From Candidatus Chlorohelix allophototropha (GTDB taxonomy: Bacteria; Chloroflexota; Chloroflexia; Chloroheliales; Chloroheliaceae), in NCBI RefSeq assembly GCF_030389965.1, contig NZ_CP128400.1, positions 2,232,001 to 2,296,000 of the forward strand: a stretch of 64,000 bases of DNA. Reading direction: 5' to 3'. Under the pieces are notes generated by a model. It searched no databases. It was not told the origin of the DNA and worked only from the letters and a program-made list of their open reading frames with translations. Both the position numbers and the translations under genes were made by a program. Positions 7,705 to 43,878 of the stretch are shown here, piece by piece (position 1 is the stretch's first letter; the number at the start of each line of letters is the position of its first letter).

Positions 7705-7890
7705 ATGAATTATCGTAATAGTCGAGCGGTAGAGCTTGTGGTAAAGGGCTTGATTGCGCTAATAACGCTGGTGGTACTTGCTCAGCTATTTAAAGGTGTA
7801 TTTGCGATTATTTCAGCGCTTCTGACGATTACCATTATCACGGTAGGCTTGATTGTTTTATTAAAGGCTCTAAACAATCGAAGATATTAA
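7705..7890 (+). CDS. Small two-helix membrane protein
   Basis: A 61-residue ORF consisting mainly of two hydrophobic helices (residues about 10-30 and 34-54) with a basic N terminus and an NNRRY tail. I prefer the ATG at 7705 (CAGGGG ten bases upstream) over the TTG at 7678. It stands alone on this strand. Function is unknown; the amphipathic ends and lack of a signal cleavage site suggest a small integral membrane protein. Confidence 0.55.
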   Translation: MNYRNSRAVELVVKGLIALITLVVLAQLFKGVFAIISALLTITIITVGLIVLLKALNNRRY

Positions 7891-18369: not shown

Positions 18370-18448
18370 AAAATATTACCATTAAAAATTAGTAGAACTT
18401 CATTTAGCAGCACCAAAAAATTATTATTTCGACCATACGACAAATAAG

Positions 18449-30452: not shown

Positions 30453-32630
30453 TTACTTTATCGGTAGAGTAACCGATTGTCCCGCCTTTAGGGAGACATA
30501 CACAATTTTTTGACCGCCATAACTTTCCACAGCGCTACAAGCCGGACAGGTGGTAGCTAAGGATAAGCCTGTTACCGGAATCCTCACGTCTTTATTAGCG
30601 GTCAAGGTGATAGAGCTATCCGGGAGGAGGGTTGCAGTAACATCGGCGGCGATGTAATCGGTTCTTTTGGACATGTTATAGCCCAACCGATCCATTGCCC
30701 CCTGCGTACAGTTTGGGTCATTGGCACAAAGTGGGTCGTTTTTGGGAATGGGCTGCCCGCCATCGCTTATTATAGGAAGGGTATAATAGCGGTTGTACTT
30801 GGCTAGAGTGGCATCCAACAAATCGCTCAACAGAGAGTGAGTTCCATCATAAGCCCGTAAATTGGGTTGGTGGAACATCAGCGGATCCATATCGCCTTTA
30901 AGCAGATAGGTTAGCAATATACTGCTTTCCCGCTCTATTATCTGCTGGTAATTATCAACATGCCAGAAATCCCCATTGGGGTAAAAACAATTATCTTCCG
31001 CCAGCCACTCATCGGGAGTGGTAACATTGAAATATTGGTCGGTAGGGTGGCGCGGGATTAGAAAAAGATTGAATTCGCTATCTTGATTCAGATATATGCC
31101 CACATTGGGAGAGGGATTGTTGTAATTGGGCAGGGAGGTATTGCTGACTAAATACCGAATGTTCATGTCATAAATCCCCTTTAGCGCGGCTGAATTTTTT
31201 AGACCTGAAACATTCGGGGTAATTAGGCTGTGGCTGCTATAGTTAGTAGGATTAACAAACCCCACTTTATAGGCAGCGCTATTGTTCTGTTCAATTTGAT
31301 ACTTCATGAAATTATAGGTAACGGCATCTAGGTCGGGGTGTTGGTAGGTATGCGTGACCCAGAAAAACTCATCCTTGAGCTGAAGCGCCATCGGGGTAAG
31401 CGTATCGGGATTGTACAACCCGGTAGTACCTATCCCCACAAAAGGAAGTTCTATTTTTAAGTCGGGAGTAGTGGGGCGGGCTTGCTGGGTTTTTTGCCAA
31501 TTAGCAAAAGCCTTCAGGTCGTTGCCGCTCATACGGTAGAAATTAAAAGAGGGGTCGGCATAAGAAGAACTACACGCCGCCCCGACTTTCCAGATGTAAT
31601 TGCCGATCAAAACATCATCCGGCTGTACTGTCAGGTAAGTGTGGAAATCCCCCAAATATAGCCCCTTAGTGACCCAATTAATCAAGCCATACGATAACAC
31701 GATGGTGTGTATCAAATTGGGGTTACTATCAAAGGTCAGGGTTAGGGTTTGCACCCCATCAGAGTCATTATGCACTAATGCCAAAGCATTACCGTTATTA
31801 TCGGTCAGTAGCGGGAAAGTATTCGCATCGTCTAGCGGTTTGGCAAGGTAGGCATACGCCTTTTCAATTATCAGAGGGCTGGCAACATTTAGGTAAGCTG
31901 AAAATAAAGATTTGCCTGATACCGTTTTATCGGTGGTAAATTGCACCGAAAGGGGATTCTTGCCCGTATCAAGGGTGGTGCCGACCTCTTGAAATCCGGT
32001 TGCAGGAGTGGGGCTTGAATACCAGTTGATTTGCCGGATATTAAAGCTGGCTTCAAATTTATGCAAAACTTGCCATTCTGTTTGAGTCAACGCGCTGGCA
32101 TAGTTTGTACCATCGTTATAAATCAGATTACTGGTGGTAAGAATGACTCCTTGAAAATAGGCATGATTGCCCCCATCTGATAGTATCGCGGATAAGCGAT
32201 CGGTTGCCGGGTCTTGGGGCAGAGGGGCAGTTTTAACCGCCAGATAGGGTACGCCGATATAATCCAACGCTTGCTGAATAGCGGGTAAATCCTCTTCTTT
32301 ACCGTCTGCCGCCAGCACTAACACTTTCATATCGAGTTGGGTTTTATTAGAAGGTGAGCCTACCACCGGGGGGGTTACTTCAGAGATTAGCGGTACTGTT
32401 CTTATTTCTTGGCGAGGAATCCCCACCGGACCGGGCAACAAATCATTGTCCCCCAGTAGCTGTTGGGTAGCAGTTAACCCGCTGATGGGAGTCGATTTCG
32501 GGGTATTGGTTTGAACAGGCGTTGAGGTAAACGGATTGAAAATAACTAGCGCAATGACCAGACCAGTAACCAGCAGAGTGACAATTTCAAAAAGCCTGCG
32601 CCAGAGATTCTGGCTTAAAAACTTGGACAT
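30453..32630 (-). CDS. Agd3-type (CE18) polysaccharide deacetylase, copy 2, membrane-anchored
   Basis: 725 residues. An N-terminal helix (about 15-32) anchors the protein. The rest follows the Agd3 layout: a Rossmann-like start (MKVLVLAADGKEEDLPAIQQ), a beta sandwich, then the deacetylase barrel with the metal-binding pair Asp-Asp in VQPDDVLI and the H-x3-H motif in VTHTYQH. Also present are GLKNSAALKGIYDMNIRYLV and PRHPTDQYFNV. In Aspergillus, Agd3 removes acetyl groups from galactosaminogalactan so it sticks to surfaces. The residues after the Asp pair (GNY) differ from copy 1 (DDD). The start has AAAGG ten bases upstream. It follows the glycosyltransferase gene in the same direction. Confidence 0.87.
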   Translation of the reverse strand: MSKFLSQNLWRRLFEIVTLLVTGLVIALVIFNPFTSTPVQTNTPKSTPISGLTATQQLLGDNDLLPGPVGIPRQEIRTVPLISEVTPPVVGSPSNKTQLDMKVLVLAADGKEEDLPAIQQALDYIGVPYLAVKTAPLPQDPATDRLSAILSDGGNHAYFQGVILTTSNLIYNDGTNYASALTQTEWQVLHKFEASFNIRQINWYSSPTPATGFQEVGTTLDTGKNPLSVQFTTDKTVSGKSLFSAYLNVASPLIIEKAYAYLAKPLDDANTFPLLTDNNGNALALVHNDSDGVQTLTLTFDSNPNLIHTIVLSYGLINWVTKGLYLGDFHTYLTVQPDDVLIGNYIWKVGAACSSSYADPSFNFYRMSGNDLKAFANWQKTQQARPTTPDLKIELPFVGIGTTGLYNPDTLTPMALQLKDEFFWVTHTYQHPDLDAVTYNFMKYQIEQNNSAAYKVGFVNPTNYSSHSLITPNVSGLKNSAALKGIYDMNIRYLVSNTSLPNYNNPSPNVGIYLNQDSEFNLFLIPRHPTDQYFNVTTPDEWLAEDNCFYPNGDFWHVDNYQQIIERESSILLTYLLKGDMDPLMFHQPNLRAYDGTHSLLSDLLDATLAKYNRYYTLPIISDGGQPIPKNDPLCANDPNCTQGAMDRLGYNMSKRTDYIAADVTATLLPDSSITLTANKDVRIPVTGLSLATTCPACSAVESYGGQKIVYVSLKAGQSVTLPIK

Positions 32631-32847: not shown

Positions 32848-35800
32848 CTAGGCGGCTGCAAAATAATAATAATCCGCCGAAGCAAGTACCTTTTGGGTTA
32901 GCCGAGAAGAAGCAATTACAAAAGCCAACGAACCGGCAATAAAAGCTGCCAAGCAGTATTTGAAATCCACGTTCAAGGCTAGCGGGATTCCTAGCACCAG
33001 CATAACTATCATGCCTACTACCACTGCCCGTACCGCTACGGTAGGACGCGCCAAGGTTAGCCCGAACATGCAGTTAAACAGCCCTTGCCCTAACCAGTAA
33101 TAAGCGACCAACCCGGCGATAAAGAAGATAACCACCGCATCGGTATTTACCCCAATCCACGCTGAAAATATATCGAAGTGGATTAATAGCCAGATGGGGA
33201 TAGCAAAAACTACACTGACCAAGAAAAGGGCGATACTATAACGCCGCCGCTCATGTCGGTAGAAAACCAATAACCGCCGCCCGAACTGATCAACCGCTAA
33301 CCCAGAGGTGTTTGCTTGGGCTACTTTTGCTTCTTCCCAAAACAGGCGTACGGCGCGTTCGGCAAAACCGCCCACCAATACCAGCGGGGGCAACGCCAAG
33401 GTTAAGCCTAGTTCCAGACTGGCAATAGCCCAAGAACGCGATTGATCCCCGCTTACTTTTCCTAACCAACCCAAAAAGTGGGGGGCGGTGATAAACGCCA
33501 CATAGAACATACCATAGGTGAAATAAGGGGCGGCTTCGTATAGCATATAAGAATTGGAGGGTAGCGCGGCTCTTTCGCGTTTAACGTTTTTACGAATTTT
33601 GGCAAACCTTCCTCTAACCGTATAGAAAATTATCCCTAATGTGGCAACAAAACCGACTACCGTACTCACAATAAGGTGTTCTCTTAAAAAGAGTCCCGTT
33701 AAAAGGTTGCTTGCAATTGCCAACCCTAACCCGCTCGCCAACGCAATACCGAGCCACACTTGCGCTTTCAACAGACTCAAAGAGCCACCCGCCAGCCAGA
33801 TAATAGAAAAGGCGGTATAGGCGAGACAGAACAACAAACGGTCTTCAAAGGTATAAATATTGAACCAGCTTGCAAGTAGCATAGCCGTAATTGCCAGCCC
33901 GATTACTGAGAAAGCTGCCAAGCGCAGGCTACGCGCCAGATATTTACCGGCAGAGCGGGAGTTGTTCAGGCTCAAACAGATAGAGGTTCGGCGCATTATT
34001 GCTTGTAGGAAGCCGTTTGTTAATAACAGCCCCGCGCTAATACCCAAACTTAACGCCATTATCTGGTCAGAGGCAAACTGCCCGGAAATTGCATAAAACT
34101 GAATAATGCCAATTATCAGCAAGCCCGGCAAGAGCGCAATCGGTCCGCTGCTGTACTGCATTATTTTTAAGCGCAAACTACTGAGCGGCGCGGGACGGTC
34201 TTTGCGCGTAACCCCGACCATTGGGGGATGCTCTTCTCGGATAATTGCCAGCACTGCTTTAGCTAAAGCAAAAGTATCAGGCGCACCGTATTGATGCCGC
34301 GCAATATCATCGGTTGTGCCGAACGATTCGATAATAGCCGTTACTTCAAGAAAATCCAGCGGCTGAGGGCAATGGCGCATCACTTCATCCGCCATAACTC
34401 GAACCATTTCAACGGTCACTTCCACTCGCTCAGGTTCTGCTACGATTTCTTGGGTAGTGTCGCTGATAATAGCCACATTCTCAAACAGTATTTCTTCGTC
34501 AGCCTGAGCGATAATATCCGCTTCCGAATAGCTATTGTTTGCTTGTGACAGGTAACTGCTTCCGGTAATTATTAATTGAGAGACACCGCTATGCCCGTTA
34601 AAAGCGGAGGGGGCAGCGAATTCTTCCTGCTCGTATTCGTGGAAGGCATAGGAGGGCTGCCTTGAACCATCGTTTAGGTTTACCAGCAAGCCCGACTCTC
34701 CACCGGAAGGCATAAACATGAAGGCATCTGTCAGCGCTACATCGATGGGCAAGGCTGAGTTTAATACTTTGGTTTCCACTCCGGCGGCAAATAAAGCTTC
34801 CGGCATGGTGCGGTTGGTAATTCGGTAGTAGCTGGTCATATAGGCTTCGCGCGATTGGCGAACGCTGAACTCTTGCAAAGCCTTTTCGCGAGCAGCCACG
34901 CCGAGTTGAGCGCAAAGCTCTTTGTCGTTCATCAATTTAAGGATTGCGTCTGCCATTTCCTTTGGATTGCGTGGCTCTACCACGAAACCGCAGCCCGCGA
35001 TTTGCTCTGGAATACCCCCCACAGAGGTTGCTACAATCGGTTTTCCGCAAAGCATCGCTTCCAGAGTAGCAAAGGGAAAGCCCTCGGAAATGCTGGAAAG
35101 CACTACAACATCGCCTTCATTGTAAGCTTCGGCGGTATTGGAAGCGTAGCCCTTAAAAATAACAGCCTCTTCCAGTCCAAGGCTGGACTGTAAAGCTTTG
35201 CATTCTTCGTAATAAGGGATATCTTCCAGCGGTGGCGAACCATAAAGCTGGAATTTAATATCAGGGCGCGATTCATGTACTAGGGCTGCCGCCTTCAACA
35301 AGGTCATTACATCCTTGAGCGGATTAATGCGTCCAACCCACACTACTACGGGAGGTTCGCCAATTGGTTTGCCCGCCGCGTAAAATTTCTGGTCGTCCGC
35401 GCCATAATAAATAGTTCTTAAACGGTCTTTGACCGCGCCGCTCTGCAATTCCCAGCGTTGGTTGTAATCGCAGCAAGGGGATACCTGATCGCTGGCAGCG
35501 TAGCTGAGGTCGGTCATGCGCCGCGCAAAACGCAACTTGAAAAGTTTCAGAAATAAGCTGCCGGAAGATTGGGCTTCTTCCAGATAACGTTCACGCAGAT
35601 AAATGCCATGCTCGGATAGTAGAAAAGCGGTGCCGTATTCCAGTTTGGCTACTATCCCAATCATTGTGCTGATACCCGCCATTGAGGTATGGGTAACATC
35701 TACCTTCGGAAGTGGGTTAGCCAGTGGGAAGAACCAATGGTAAAGCCACTGTAATGCGGTAGTAATATCCTCTAAAGCGAACTCCGCATTGGGATAACCG

Positions 35801-36348
35801 TAATTAGCTGCCGACTGTGGGAAACTCTGTTGGACGGTATCGACAAAACTATCCCAAACCGCTTTGGAGCGCATCACCGTATCAAAGTTATGCTCAAGAT
35901 AAAAGCGATACATTTTATGAAGGTATTCACCGAGTCGCTCAGGCTCTGAATCGCTTAGAAATAAATCCCTGATAAAGCTGCTAAATATCGGCACGAATTT
36001 TTCGGCTATGATTTCCTCAGAGGTGTGCTGCTTTTTCTTGAGCAGTTCGAGCATGCCTAGGTTTTGGTTAAGCTCGGTAGCTTCGCGGATACCCCACAGC
36101 GGAATAGGGCGAAAATCGACAACATTGTCGAGCAGGGTTATTTGGGGTGTAAGATGCGGGTCAGCGGCAATGCTGAATACTGTAAAATTCACTTCAGGCA
36201 AATCCCGTATCAATAGATGACACCAAGTACTGACCCCACCCCAATGAAATGGGTAGGTTCCCTCAGTTACCAGCATTACTTTTAGAGCTTCAGAAGTCTC
36301 ACTAACTGCTGGTACAATTTCTTCTTCTGCTGGAATTAATTGATTCAC
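32848..36348 (-). CDS. PelF-PelG-like fusion: GT4 glycosyltransferase plus polysaccharide transport domain
   Basis: 1166 residues from a GTG with AAGGG eight bases upstream. Residues about 22-510 are a PelF-type GT4 transferase: EGTYPFHWGGVSTW at the acceptor side, VVVWVGRINPLKD, and the E-x7-E nucleotide-sugar site (SEGFPFATLEAM). A ~180-residue linker follows. From about 700 there are about twelve transmembrane helices (MQYSSGPIALLPGLLIIGII onward) resembling PelG, the inner-membrane partner. In Pel systems PelF and PelG are separate proteins; here polymer synthesis and export are in one chain. Expected substrate UDP-GalNAc. It corresponds to Gtb3 in the fungal galactosaminogalactan cluster. 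Confidence 0.87.
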   Translation of the reverse strand: MNQLIPAEEEIVPAVSETSEALKVMLVTEGTYPFHWGGVSTWCHLLIRDLPEVNFTVFSIAADPHLTPQITLLDNVVDFRPIPLWGIREATELNQNLGMLELLKKKQHTSEEIIAEKFVPIFSSFIRDLFLSDSEPERLGEYLHKMYRFYLEHNFDTVMRSKAVWDSFVDTVQQSFPQSAANYGYPNAEFALEDITTALQWLYHWFFPLANPLPKVDVTHTSMAGISTMIGIVAKLEYGTAFLLSEHGIYLRERYLEEAQSSGSLFLKLFKLRFARRMTDLSYAASDQVSPCCDYNQRWELQSGAVKDRLRTIYYGADDQKFYAAGKPIGEPPVVVWVGRINPLKDVMTLLKAAALVHESRPDIKFQLYGSPPLEDIPYYEECKALQSSLGLEEAVIFKGYASNTAEAYNEGDVVVLSSISEGFPFATLEAMLCGKPIVATSVGGIPEQIAGCGFVVEPRNPKEMADAILKLMNDKELCAQLGVAAREKALQEFSVRQSREAYMTSYYRITNRTMPEALFAAGVETKVLNSALPIDVALTDAFMFMPSGGESGLLVNLNDGSRQPSYAFHEYEQEEFAAPSAFNGHSGVSQLIITGSSYLSQANNSYSEADIIAQADEEILFENVAIISDTTQEIVAEPERVEVTVEMVRVMADEVMRHCPQPLDFLEVTAIIESFGTTDDIARHQYGAPDTFALAKAVLAIIREEHPPMVGVTRKDRPAPLSSLRLKIMQYSSGPIALLPGLLIIGIIQFYAISGQFASDQIMALSLGISAGLLLTNGFLQAIMRRTSICLSLNNSRSAGKYLARSLRLAAFSVIGLAITAMLLASWFNIYTFEDRLLFCLAYTAFSIIWLAGGSLSLLKAQVWLGIALASGLGLAIASNLLTGLFLREHLIVSTVVGFVATLGIIFYTVRGRFAKIRKNVKRERAALPSNSYMLYEAAPYFTYGMFYVAFITAPHFLGWLGKVSGDQSRSWAIASLELGLTLALPPLVLVGGFAERAVRLFWEEAKVAQANTSGLAVDQFGRRLLVFYRHERRRYSIALFLVSVVFAIPIWLLIHFDIFSAWIGVNTDAVVIFFIAGLVAYYWLGQGLFNCMFGLTLARPTVAVRAVVVGMIVMLVLGIPLALNVDFKYCLAAFIAGSLAFVIASSRLTQKVLASADYYYFAAA

Positions 36349-36413
36349 TTTGATACCCTTATTAATACGCTGCTTTATTTAAATCTTTGATTATTTGTAA
36401 TTATTCATCCCCT

Positions 36414-36830
36414 TCCCATCAAGGAGGGAAGGAGAGTTCAAGGGGACACCCCTTGCCACCCCGCACAGGGGTTGCCACCCCTGAGAACCCCGCTCGGATT
36501 CCCTTAGCTCCCCTCAAGGAGGAAGGAGAGAGGGAGGAGTTCAAGGGGACACCCCTTGCCACCCCGCACAGGGGTTGCCACCCCTGAGAACCCCGCTCGG
36601 ATTCCGTTAGCTCCCCTCAAGGGGGGAAGGAGAGAGGGAGGAGTTCAAGGGGACACCCCTTGCCACCCCGCACAGGGGTTGCCACCCCTGAGAACCCCGC
36701 TCGGATTCCGTTAGCTCCCCTCAAGGGGGGAAGGAGAGAGGGAAGAATTCAAGGGGACACCCCTTGCCACCCCGCACAGGGGTTGCACCTGCCTGTGACC
36801 CGGGATAGGGGATACCCAAACCAACTCCAC
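36414..36830 (+). repeat. Tandem repeat, 104-base unit, about 3.5 copies
   Basis: The start TTCAAGGGGACACC recurs at 36437, 36540, 36644 and 36748, a period of 103-104 bases. Each unit contains a GC-rich palindromic part (CACCCCGCACAGGGGTTGCC) and a purine-rich part (AAGGAGAGAGGGAGGAG). The fourth copy is partial and runs into GTGACCCGGGATAGGGGATA. Short open frames inside are artefacts of the repeat. It lies between the epimerase gene and the glycosyltransferase gene and could affect expression across the operon. Confidence 0.85.
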
Positions 36831-39734: not shown

Positions 39735-41867
39735 TTAAGGGGCTGGGAACGAGATGGTCTGATTGGCAGTCATGTTTATATGTGAGATGGACTGACCGCC
39801 ATAAGTTTCGGGCGTACCGTACTTGACACCTGTAACCGGAACAGTCGCGGCATTTGCAACTTTTACTGTGATGGTTTTTGAACCCGGATTCCAAGTGGCA
39901 GTCACACCGGAGGCGTTGTAAGCCATCCGATTGGTCATGGCAACCCCTATTTCGTGCTGTGTCATGTTCTTGATCGGCAGATTGGAAACCGCGCTGTACT
40001 TGGTCAAAGTAGCGTTAATCAAATCGCCTAACAAAGAGTTAGTAGTGTTGTATGCGCCAACGTTAGGCTGGTGGAACATTACGGGGTCAATGTCCCATTT
40101 GAGTAACCACTGCAACCACAGATTCGATTCGGTATCCAGAATCTGGTTATAGGTAAGATTTGTTGTCCAATAGCGCCAAGCTCCTCCGGCGCAAGTTCCG
40201 GTAGGCCCGTAGTAACAGTTGTACTCCGACACCCATTGAGCTTGAGTTCTGAGGTTATAGAAAAGATTGGTGGTATGTCGCGGAACAACCAGCAAACCTG
40301 AAGGAGTAGTAAAGCCTGTGTTTGGGCTTGGGTTATTCCAACCTGCGCGGGAAGTGTCGGATATTAGATAACGGATACCCCAATTGTAGGCGGCTTGCTG
40401 GAAGGTTGGATTATACAAACCTGATATATCGGGCTGCACCATCGCATCTTTGTAGAAATTGGTAAAGCCGCTCTGAGTAGCGTAATCAAGGTTTTGCTGC
40501 AATTCAGCGACCGTATCCGCCGCCGTAATAGCATCAAGGTTAGCGTGGGTGAAGGTATGGGTAATCCAGTTAAACTGTGCTTTATTGGCTACTACTGCGG
40601 ATGAAAGAGTATCCGGACTATAGATTCCGGTTGAGCCTTCACCGTTGAAAGGAAATTCTATTTTCAAACTGGCAGCGAGTGGGAACTTTGTCCTGATATT
40701 ATTCTGCCAAGTTATAAACCGGGTTAAGTCGGTGCCGGACATACGGAAGGTGATGCCCGTAGTGTCGGTCATGGCTTTGGTATCCCAAATGTCATCATCA
40801 ATCAAGATGTCATCAGGCTGAATACCCATCGAGGCATGCCGCTCACCCAAGAAAACACCCTTGGTAAGCCAATTGATAGTGCCGTAGGAAAGTAGCAAAG
40901 TATGCACCAGATAGGGGTTACCATCGGCGGTTATTGCCAAATTCTGGCGACCATCGGCATAAGTTTTAACGGCAGCAATGGTGTAAACTCCATTGGTAGT
41001 GGTCAGCAAGGGAGTGACGTTCTCACCGGGCGCAACTGTCGCCAAGTAAGTCCACGCGCCACTGATAGTAATGGTGGCATTGGGCTTTAGGTCTGAGAAA
41101 ACCGCATTCCCGGCAGTGGTTAACTTGGTTTGAAGCGGGGTAGTAAGTGTATCTTGATAAGCATAGGTTGGGTCGGCTAAGCCATAAGTATCGGGCCAAC
41201 CGGGAAGCGTGTAAGCGGTCACTTGCCGAATACCAAACATCGCTTCGTAGTTCCAAAGAGTATTCCACTCAGCGGTGGTGAAGGCGCTAGGCCAACTATT
41301 GGTAGTCGCATCATAATACAATAGACTTCCGGTAGTTAAAATGATGCCCTGATAATAGCCGTGTGAAACGCCATCCCACAGGAGGCTATCGGTTAGCGTA
41401 GTTTGCGAAGCAAGCAGCACATTGTAAGGGAGACCGAGTTGATCCAATGTAGATTTAATCGCCGGGAAATTCGGCTCAGTGCCATCTGCGGCAACTACCA
41501 GAATTTTCATATCGCGTGGGTCAAGAGTATGATTAGCTACAGCGGCGGCAGCCAACAAAGTTGGTGCGGCGGGGGCAGTAGTCAGCGCATCCACGCCCAC
41601 AGTTAAGCCATCAATTGCCGAGTTCCCTCTAGGTTTATTTTTTTTCTTGGAAGTGCTAACAGGTTGTTGGGGTTTGGAAGGTATTTTAGTTGGTTCTACT
41701 ACACCGGGAACGACATCCAGATGCCCTGCTTTGAGTTTATTATTTGCAGCGTCAACATCGACTGTCGAGGTTAAAAACGTGGTGGCGATTGCTAATAAGG
41801 CAAACAATAAGCCAAAACGCATAACTACAGACAATCTGGGATTTTGAAAAGGTTTCTTTTTACGCAC
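39735..41867 (-). CDS. Agd3-type (CE18) polysaccharide deacetylase, copy 1, secreted
   Basis: 710 residues from a GTG preceded by GGAGG; the longer ORF to 41945 has no ribosome site. A signal peptide ends near VDVDAA. The domain order follows Aspergillus Agd3: MKILVVAADGTEPNFPAI (Rossmann-like), GIILTTGSLLYYD and YEAMFGIRQVTAY (beta sandwich region), then the barrel with IQPDDILI (metal Asp pair), ITHTFTHANLDA (H-x3-H) and PRHTTNLFYN. It would partly deacetylate an extracellular GalNAc polymer. First gene of the biosynthetic operon, ahead of the dehydrogenase, epimerase and synthase genes. Confidence 0.9.
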   Translation of the reverse strand: MRKKKPFQNPRLSVVMRFGLLFALLAIATTFLTSTVDVDAANNKLKAGHLDVVPGVVEPTKIPSKPQQPVSTSKKKNKPRGNSAIDGLTVGVDALTTAPAAPTLLAAAAVANHTLDPRDMKILVVAADGTEPNFPAIKSTLDQLGLPYNVLLASQTTLTDSLLWDGVSHGYYQGIILTTGSLLYYDATTNSWPSAFTTAEWNTLWNYEAMFGIRQVTAYTLPGWPDTYGLADPTYAYQDTLTTPLQTKLTTAGNAVFSDLKPNATITISGAWTYLATVAPGENVTPLLTTTNGVYTIAAVKTYADGRQNLAITADGNPYLVHTLLLSYGTINWLTKGVFLGERHASMGIQPDDILIDDDIWDTKAMTDTTGITFRMSGTDLTRFITWQNNIRTKFPLAASLKIEFPFNGEGSTGIYSPDTLSSAVVANKAQFNWITHTFTHANLDAITAADTVAELQQNLDYATQSGFTNFYKDAMVQPDISGLYNPTFQQAAYNWGIRYLISDTSRAGWNNPSPNTGFTTPSGLLVVPRHTTNLFYNLRTQAQWVSEYNCYYGPTGTCAGGAWRYWTTNLTYNQILDTESNLWLQWLLKWDIDPVMFHQPNVGAYNTTNSLLGDLINATLTKYSAVSNLPIKNMTQHEIGVAMTNRMAYNASGVTATWNPGSKTITVKVANAATVPVTGVKYGTPETYGGQSISHINMTANQTISFPAP

Positions 41868-42000
41868 TATTACCTCCAAATTGGTATCAATAACGATGGC
41901 AAGGTGCATCAAAGAGCTTGCCTGTGCCAAACGACGTCCTAGCAAAGAGAAGTGATATACCTTGTCGATTTTGATAGCTGGCTTTTAACCAGTTCCAAGT

Positions 42001-42170
42001 GAGGTTTAGCGGGTACTGATGTCAGACACTTTCGGAGGCATTGCAAGAATTGCTTTGCATGGTGTAAAATAGAAGTGTCTTAGGCGCAACTAAACCTCGT
42101 AAGCCAAGAACTACGAGTGAACGAGTTTAAGACAAGGGGATAAGGCTTTGCAGAGCTTTATTCCCGCTTT
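42001..42170. other. Candidate structured RNA upstream of the polysaccharide operon
   Basis: Nested inverted repeats: GAGGTTTAG (42001-42009) with CTAAACCTC (42090-42098), enclosing AGACACTT (42024-42031) with AAGTGTCT (42073-42080). On the plus strand a further hairpin follows (GGGATAAGGCTTT and AGCTTTATTCCC, about 42138-42166), then GCTTTATTTTAT, like a terminator. On the minus strand the nested stems would lie in the leader of the deacetylase operon, about 130 bases before its GTG. It matches no riboswitch I know. Strand and function are undecided. Confidence 0.4.
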
Positions 42171-42240
42171 ATTTTATAAATGGTTACTGGGTGATTACGA
42201 CCCCGATAGCATACCTTTTATTTAGCAACCCCAAATAAGG

Positions 42241-42756
42241 GAGTGCAAAATTGGTTCGAAGTAAAAATTAATAGCGATGTAAAGATGGTGCGTAGCATAT
42301 ATAGGTAGATGTACATCCAAGCTCTTAACTTATACTTTTTAGAGTTAACTTATTACAACGGTTCAAGCTGCTTAAATATAAGCATGTAATTAAGTTAACA
42401 TATTTTTACCTGATGGGCAATTGTACCATATATTTATTTTAATGTTAAGTTAATAAATTGTAACTTTGATATTCATCTGTGATCGCTTTGAGGCAAAGCT
42501 GTTTCGGAATGAAATGACAGTTTTTAGAGCAAGGTAAATATTTCCTAAAGATACAGGCGATTTATAATAGACTCCTCCTTAGCTGCAAGGTAATTAAGCT
42601 GCCCAACTGAGTAATTCAAACCCATTACAAGCGTACAAGGGGAGTTTGGTTTGGAGGTGGACAGCATTTAGCGTCTAATCTTTACAGAGTTTTGCCCGAT
42701 TCATCCCCGAAGAATAGTTTACCCAACTTCCTCTAATATTTAACCTATATAAAAGC
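42241..42756. other. AT-rich non-coding stretch
   Basis: No convincing ORF or ribosome site on either strand. Very AT-rich from 42280 to 42480, with several TTAACTTA-like words. The part from 42560 to 42756 leads into a strong terminator and could be a small untranslated transcript. Confidence 0.35.
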
Positions 42757-42785
42757 AAAAAGCACAGCGCGTACTGTGCTTTTTT
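42757..42785 (+). terminator. Orphan rho-independent terminator
   Basis: AAAAAGCACAG, loop CGCGTA, CTGTGCTTTTTT: a perfect stem with a T-run on the plus strand and an A-run on the other side, so it could work in both directions. No gene lies upstream on the plus strand within this gap, hinting at an unannotated small RNA between about 42560 and 42757. Confidence 0.75.
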
Positions 42786-42996
42786 CATGCTAGTTTCAAA
42801 CCCCTTCCGAGGATTAGGTGTCTTCCGACAGTAGCTCTTTCTTAGAGCTTCCCGATTCTATGAAAATGGCATTTTCCCGATGCATGGGGAATTTATCATT
42901 CCTTAATCAAACGAGAGCGCGTCCAGACAGCCACCTACCGATTAAAACCCCTGTAGGGTTGCGCTTTCTCGACACAAACCTAGGTCTAAAGGCTTA

Positions 42997-43878
42997 GAGC
43001 GTTTCTTAAAACTGAGTAAAGAAGAAAGTTGAAATAAAAAAGAATAATGGGTAAGCTCGTATTATGAGTACAAGAAAAGCTTACCCTACCGACCCGAGCG
43101 ATGCCGAGTGGGAAATCATTATGCCATATTTCCCCCCTAACAGTCGAGAAGGTCGTCCCAGAGTACATCCCTATCGTGAAATAGTCTGCGCCATCTTCTA
43201 CTTACTCAAAACTGGTTGCCAATGGGAAATGCTTCCACAAGAGTTTCCTCATTGGAAAACAGTCTATCACTACTACCGTCTGTGGCGCTGGAACGGTCTT
43301 TGGCAACGTATTTACGAGGCACTACACCAAAAAGTGCGAGTTAAGGCAGGACGAAATCCCCAACCCAGCGCTGGTATCATCGATAGCCAGTCAGTAAAAA
43401 CCACCGAAGTTGGAGGAATACGGGGTTACGATGCAGGAAAAAAGGTGAATGGGCGCAAGCGGCACCTGCTGGTGGACACCTTGGGCTTTCCGATCGTGGT
43501 CAAAGTACAAGCTGCGAATATACAAGATCGAGATGGGGCAATAGAAGTGCTGGCCACTGCTGAGAATAAATGCCGTACCCTGAAGTTGGTATGGGCGGAT
43601 GGAGGTTACAGCGGAAAGTTGGTAGAGTGGGTGGCTGGAATGTTCGATTTTGAACTGGAAATAGTCAAACGCACCGACGATATTAAAGGTTTTAAGGTAC
43701 AACCGCGTCGTTGGGTAGTAGAACGGACGCATGCCTGGATCGGGCGGAACCGACGAATGGCGAAAGAGTATGAGCGTTTACCACAGCATTCGGAAGCCAA
43801 TATTTACATTTCTATGATCCGTTTGGCTCTCAAAAGGCTTTCTAAACTTTCGCCTTGATCTAGTTTTAAGAATGGCTC
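42997..43878 (+). mobile_element. IS5-family insertion sequence with TTA target duplication
   Basis: 882 bases bounded by inverted repeats of about 17 bases (left GAGCGTTTCTTAAAACT, right inverse GAGCCATTCTTAAAACT, two mismatches). TTA is present directly outside both ends (42994-42996 and 43879-43881), the three-base duplication expected for this IS5 subgroup. It encodes one intact transposase, so it may be recent and active. Confidence 0.88.
43064..43858 (+). CDS. IS5-family transposase
   Basis: 264 residues with an N-terminal DUF4096-like DNA-binding part (DAEWEIIMPYFPPNSREGRP) and a DDE catalytic domain. The Asp in GIIDSQSVKTTEVGG, the Asp in VWADGGYSG and the Glu in VVERTHAWIGRNRRM form the triad. 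The gene is in a single frame, unlike subgroups that need a frameshift. No damage is seen, and matching inverted repeats and a target duplication surround it. Confidence 0.93.
   Translation: MSTRKAYPTDPSDAEWEIIMPYFPPNSREGRPRVHPYREIVCAIFYLLKTGCQWEMLPQEFPHWKTVYHYYRLWRWNGLWQRIYEALHQKVRVKAGRNPQPSAGIIDSQSVKTTEVGGIRGYDAGKKVNGRKRHLLVDTLGFPIVVKVQAANIQDRDGAIEVLATAENKCRTLKLVWADGGYSGKLVEWVAGMFDFELEIVKRTDDIKGFKVQPRRWVVERTHAWIGRNRRMAKEYERLPQHSEANIYISMIRLALKRLSKLSP

Follow-up and report, generated by a model that had tools for sequence, protein, structure and literature searches.

What occupies the 1.13 kb or so of DNA, apparently empty of genes, that separates a polysaccharide operon from an insertion sequence in 'Ca. 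Chlorohelix allophototropha'? The stretch carries nested stems and terminator-like hairpins, which an earlier note on this DNA had read either as a leader sensing a signal for the operon or as a small RNA on the opposite strand. Our answer, drawn from sequence and held at about an even chance, is that the gap contains two unrelated RNA-type elements rather than one leader: a candidate antisense RNA, which we call element A, and a cassette probably derived from a CRISPR array, which we call element B. Neither has the look of an operon switch. Transcription of A would mean that an antisense RNA covers the leader of the polysaccharide operon. Should B be transcribed, it is a chromosomal, duplicated and terminator-closed addition to the ectopic CRISPR repeats, the roles of which outside immunity are being worked out, and it comes from a phototroph lineage represented by very few genomes. 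Should neither be transcribed, the gap illustrates how a remnant of CRISPR can be mistaken for an orphan terminator or a small RNA.

The gap and its surroundings

The window (by which we mean the whole stretch analysed, 64,000 nucleotides) lies on contig C2, 2,453,413 bases long, in a genome of 6,086,194 bases and five contigs; the other replicons include C1 (2,961,161 bases), C3 (375,274 bases) and C4 (241,389 bases). Replicon sizes given for 'Ca. Chlorohelix allophototropha' L227-S17 are 2.96 and 2.45 Mb together with 375, 241 and 55 kb (PMC10972752), and the word 'CRISPR' is absent from the part of that paper's text available to us. Two features bound the gap.

39738-41867, minus strand: Agd3-type deacetylase (PF25115, PF25116), first gene of the polysaccharide operon
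42997-43878, plus strand: IS4/5-type insertion sequence at the far edge of the gap, with a TTA target duplication at 42994-42996/43879-43881

The deacetylase most likely starts at the GTG at 41867, which has GGAGG ahead of it. With the insertion sequence beginning at 42997, the gap therefore measures about 1.13 kb, and the ORF list holds no credible reading frame in it, much as the earlier note had described (1.1 kb, no genes). After the deacetylase the operon continues on the minus strand with a UDP-glucose/GDP-mannose dehydrogenase, an NDP-sugar epimerase and a large glycosyltransferase fusion. The insertion sequence is present in five near-identical genome copies; among the three whose flanks were read, TTA stands on both sides of the window copy and of one other, and TAA flanks the third.

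The operon has some curiosities of its own. Positions 32848-36348 encode a 1166-residue protein with DUF3492 and group 1 glycosyltransferase domains in its N-terminal half; its hydrophobic second half looks PelG-like by eye, making a PelF-PelG fusion possible. Paralogous Agd3-type deacetylases (39738-41867 and 30453-32630) flank this one operon, with a third copy at C2:1134682. When the whole window was surveyed in 110-nt tiles, folding on the minus strand was strongest at 36376-36760, where repeated peptide units in the ORF list suggest a tandemly repeated stretch of DNA between two genes of the operon.

Element A and the operon side of the gap

Five features belong to this side of the gap.

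42001-42178, plus strand: element A, candidate small RNA on the strand opposite the polysaccharide operon's upstream leader (z -3.30)
42001-42098, plus strand: nested hairpin with perfect arms, outer stem 42001-42009/42090-42098 (9 bp), inner stem 42024-42031/42073-42080 (8 bp)
42136-42165, plus strand: intrinsic terminator hairpin of 13 pairs with tail GCTTTATTTT, by folding energy
42420-42448, minus strand: promoter-like site TTAACA-17-TACAAT with TG, candidate operon start (10/12, a consensus match only)
42325-42453: four operator-like TTAACTTA 8-mers, two per orientation, at 42325, 42345, 42391 and 42446

The nested stems of nine and eight base pairs that had been reported at 42001-42098 are indeed there, and the terminator-like hairpin, previously put at about 42138-42170, can be placed at 42136-42165 with 13 pairs on the plus strand. 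Over its 178 nt, A folds below all 200 of its shuffles on each strand (z -3.30 plus, -3.41 minus). The nested stems alone give z of -2.5 and -2.7 on the two strands and, because both strands fold about equally unusually, they leave the strand undecided. The terminator hairpin is plus-specific, since three G-U pairs on the plus strand turn into C-A mismatches on the minus (-18.5 kcal/mol plus versus -8.7 minus), and a T-rich run follows it on the plus strand. A terminator scan returned six terminator-like sites, compared with 1.4 +/- 1.4 in shuffles. The ORF lists show no plus-strand gene for many kilobases upstream of A, so the simplest role for its terminator would be to end a short non-coding RNA.

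A stable, GC-containing hairpin and then a T-rich run on the plus strand fit an intrinsically terminated small RNA, and our best reading of the sequence is that A may be such an RNA, antisense to the polysaccharide-operon leader. The predicted transcript would be short, starting near 42000 and ending near 42175; the consensus scan found no promoter of at least 9/12 directly upstream. A is antisense to the operon leader if the promoter-like site at 42448-42420 is used, in which case the predicted RNA would be fully complementary to that leader and, as a cis-antisense RNA, might act by pairing with it or by being transcribed against it. Bacterial intergenic or cis-antisense small RNAs that end in intrinsic terminators form a general class. 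A would resemble them as a structured candidate of 178 nt that lies opposite a leader and has a terminator of its own; it differs in having no known relatives. For 42001-42178 the plus-strand small RNA of the earlier note is thus the better of its two proposals, favoured by the plus-specific terminator and the empty upstream strand, and its standing is that of a candidate. By eye, a 17-codon reading frame can also be found inside A (42019-42072, plus), with a poorly spaced ribosome site.

The stronger of two rivals for A holds that it yields no RNA and is a chance hairpin beside a stray terminator, and we take it seriously while leaning against it. Of 3000 dinucleotide shuffles made from the gap, 21 contained nested stems of at least 9 and at least 8 bp within 110 nt, by a criterion set after the locus had been seen; among the 126 real tiles of 1055 nt taken from the window, 4 contain them as well, two of these being the A locus itself. 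Some of the window's 110-nt tiles are more unusual in their folding than A, which ranks 14 and 59 of 2556 on the plus strand and does not appear among the listed minus-tail tiles. Neither BLAST nor a covariance model found a homologue. All this suits an accident; what suits it poorly is that the terminator has 13 pairs, is plus-specific, runs into a T-rich tail and has no gene ahead of it to end, and that no shuffle equalled the fold over 178 nt.

How much should be made of the missing homologues? BLAST of A against 61 genomes, its own included, recovered only short chance stretches: matches with E of at most 1 occur in 15 of the 61, again counting its own, and those elsewhere span at most 41 nt with E of at least 0.095, which is why we dismissed them. 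The single-sequence covariance model of A (R2) hit its own genome alone, 1 of 61, and across six loci that include the paralogous and orthologous deacetylase genes it gave nothing relevant (one match, E 3.6). A related-loci search with the deacetylase as query brought in no relatives. Yet the missing relatives say little, because just four other family genomes were compared and one of them has a deacetylase homologue, at 46% identity. The check for conservation in relatives that the earlier note had set for its own reading came out against A, among four family genomes too distant to decide the matter.

The remaining rival assigns the stems to the minus strand, where, as a riboswitch or an attenuator, they would control the polysaccharide operon in cis from its leader, and we consider it unlikely. 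The stems do fold on that strand (z -2.68, and -3.41 over 178 nt), and they lie inside the leader if transcription starts at 42448-42420. However, nothing in the window matches an Rfam family at its gathering cut-off, riboswitches included; the hairpin at 42136-42165 is broken on the minus strand; no terminator stands between the stems and the gene on that strand, nor does a clear ribosome-site hairpin follow the stems; and no counterpart is found near the paralogous or orthologous deacetylase genes (loci L022-L024). With no riboswitch family, no minus-strand terminator after the stems and no conserved counterpart, the signal-sensing switch once proposed here is not supported. The gap has five sub-threshold Rfam matches, none on 42001-42178; one of them, an AdoCbl match at 42426-42511, we put down to chance (19.8 bits, cut-off 50). 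Two further identities for A were ruled out, a 6S RNA, as the genome's sole RF00013 match lies elsewhere, and a mobile DNA repeat, as A has one genome copy. A 6S RNA candidate can be seen at C1:1145510-1145702, scoring 36.8 bits against the Rfam cut-off of 46.4, and three family relatives have matches above the cut-off.

Control of the operon by a protein is at least as likely as control by RNA. The window holds five copies of TTAACTTA, four in a 130-bp stretch at the promoter-like site and the fifth at 18445. Four copies of this 8-mer arose in none of 3000 shuffles; four copies of any 8-mer did so in 63 of 3000. Genome-wide, paired TTAACTTA sites with at most two mismatches number 13, versus 14 for the reversed control, so no TTAACTTA regulon is shown, and we dropped the idea of a genome-wide regulon operator, its sites being no commoner than those of the control.

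Element B, a duplicated cassette with a CRISPR-type repeat

The far side of the gap has a different make-up, listed here in minus-strand order.

42742-42912, minus strand: element B, the whole cassette of about 170 nt, with a second copy at C2:2047530-2047709
42830-42912, minus strand: upstream block, common to both copies, directly before the repeat
42793-42829, minus strand: solitary 37-nt CRISPR-type repeat with the end TTTGAAAC, its usual orientation being minus
42757-42784, minus strand: terminator hairpin with an 11-bp perfect stem, terminator-like on both strands

An orphan perfect terminator had been noted at 42757-42785. The perfect hairpin is real (42757-42784), but it is no orphan, for it closes a minus-strand cassette; the duplication of that cassette and the CRISPR-type repeat beside the hairpin had both been missed. 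Because its GAAAC end orients the repeat, the order on the minus strand is upstream block, repeat, terminator. BLAST of 42740-42999 finds the second copy on the same chromosome, matching over C2:2047530-2047707 (83%, E 2.6e-43). Aligned, the copies are identical in 142 of 180 columns, and their longest identical run, 35 columns, takes in all of the repeat except its 3' end; 73 of 20000 column shuffles equalled a run of that length. The GAAAC handle is lost in the second copy. One neighbour of that copy is what we take to be a DUF1385-like gene, the other a gene that finishes in a long, charged repeat, and the ORF lists show no phage or plasmid genes beside either copy.

Is B built to be an RNA? 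RNAalifold, with the strands run separately, gives the two copies -37.3 kcal/mol on the minus strand versus -19.8 on the plus, and the window copy taken singly does better on the plus (z -2.69 versus -1.97). Stripped of its terminator, B is no more structured than its shuffles (z -0.48 and -0.81). In the stem just before the repeat, both partners of one pair have changed (U-A to C-G) with pairing intact, and in the second copy G-U preserves pairs of the terminator, on the minus strand only; two of the three double changes between the copies sit in an implausible end helix, and covariation drawn from two copies has almost no power. The consensus scan found no minus-strand promoter of at least 9/12 in B. 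A supposed third copy at C1:2704464 (E 1.8e-5) proved to combine a coding gene's 3' end with an unrelated terminator, and weak R1 matches in relatives (G001, 0.009; G004, 0.20; G003, 0.90) were judged to be terminator hairpins.

The repeat itself has kin. A pattern search of the whole genome, allowing at most three mismatches, finds four full repeats of the solitary type (control, 0), and the BLAST of 42740-42999 gives matches confined to the repeat on C1, at 2144331 and 993194/993256. The first is a single repeat (C1:2144331-2144367) identical to that of B at 36 of 37 positions. The second, in C1:993190-993290, matches B's at 34 of 37 and has a decayed second repeat 38 nt on, and it is because of this second repeat that we regard the repeat in B as a CRISPR repeat. 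Against Rfam CRISPR repeat models, 42793-42829 scores 18.7 and 15.4 bits, below the cut-offs. At B there is one full repeat, which falls short of a two-repeat CRISPR array; it is intergenic, and neither 100-bp flank holds any further repeat signal. BLAST found no solitary repeat in the four family relatives. The exact repeat was absent from collections of genomes and viral contigs, and similarity searches drew a blank in plasmid and phage collections, in both cases collections from which its own genome may have been left out.

On the plainest reading, B would be an ectopic CRISPR-repeat cassette from a lost array, possibly still transcribed. Most likely it descends from the array of a system since lost from the chromosomes, and what survives would be the leader, one repeat and the terminator of that ancestral array. 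Transcription on the minus strand would yield a predicted short, repeat-bearing RNA, to which a Cas6-type enzyme might bind.

The closest competitor shares this ancestry and takes B for a decaying relic, duplicated along with its flanks, neither copy being transcribed for any purpose. We rate it only a shade below an even chance. Single repeats are scattered about C1, as is one array of two repeats of which the last is broken, and one copy of B has shed its handle, as decay would have it; the repeat is nonetheless the longest unchanged run between the copies, and the terminator pairing has been kept.

The resident type I-D system and other possible fates for the repeat

The cell has a CRISPR system of its own. 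Cas1 occurs once in the genome, on the 241-kb plasmid C4, accompanied by Cas4, Cas6, Csc1, Csc2, Cas10d and Cas3', which NCBIfam and PADLOC label type I-D or general. The system and an array of 76 repeats occupy loci L053 (13572-19098) and L054 (771-9436) of C4. The array repeat is identical to the solitary one at 22 of 37 positions, a level reached by none of 20000 shuffles of the solitary repeat. Both are 37 nt long with a hairpin just before the GAAAC handle; the array differs from B, which has one repeat, no spacer and another upstream block. That block bears no resemblance to the 200 nt that precede the array (of 500 shuffles, 480 did as well), and the array's spacers match the window and four other loci over 12-17 nt only, with no target among them. 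It is a long shot that the plasmid-encoded Cas6 cuts or binds an RNA from B, with its diverged repeat, in which case a regulatory or decoy RNA made by the chromosome would be tied to immunity carried on the plasmid.

Could B be a solitary repeat unit whose RNA acts as an anti-CRISPR, a decoy tying up the type I-D Cas6 and Cas7? In the available part of the work on Racr, such units are intergenic, lack a second repeat within 100 bp and occur in phages and plasmids, and the candidates picked for testing had an upstream promoter (PMC10651486). B is like them in that its repeat is single, intergenic and away from cas genes and other repeats, in a host with CRISPR-Cas (PMC10651486). It is unlike them in being chromosomal, in having two copies with common flanks and a terminator, in showing neither a promoter nor a phage or plasmid setting, and in a repeat just 22/37 like the array's. 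The criterion for a solitary repeat unit asks for 90% identity or more with a CRISPR repeat already known, and the repeat in B stands at 36/37 and 34/37 to the repeats on C1 and at 22/37 to the I-D repeat. The decoy is a distinctly poor prospect: a lone intergenic repeat with a terminator, clean flanks, a type I-D system on C4 and a hairpin placed as in the I-D repeat speak for it, but B is chromosomal, no phage or plasmid genes are seen next to either copy, a consensus promoter is missing, and phage, plasmid and viral collections give no match.

Also very unlikely is a CreA-like guide that steers the type I-D effector to a chromosomal target: GTHTAGCANGAAAA has one genome match, but about 0.5 chance matches are expected, the match is not beside a recognisable toxin RNA, and the second copy of B lacks the handle. 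The match sits between genes that we take to be purU-like and transposase-like, and the PAM used in this target search was the I-D PAM. The one-repeat creA of CreTA is made up, in the portion of its description available to us, of a repeat-like part, a spacer-like part and a T-rich terminator (PMC8501985). The window copy of B has its parts in the same order, namely repeat, short spacer-like stretch and terminator, but differs in having no recognised creT, no cas neighbours and no convincing target. We file B as neither an RNA anti-CRISPR nor a creA because the fit is partial and the target match near chance, which returns us to the ectopic cassette from a lost array. Near the decayed CRISPR repeats on C1, at 7790-7888 of locus L042, there is also a group II intron match, by a reverse transcriptase-like reading frame.
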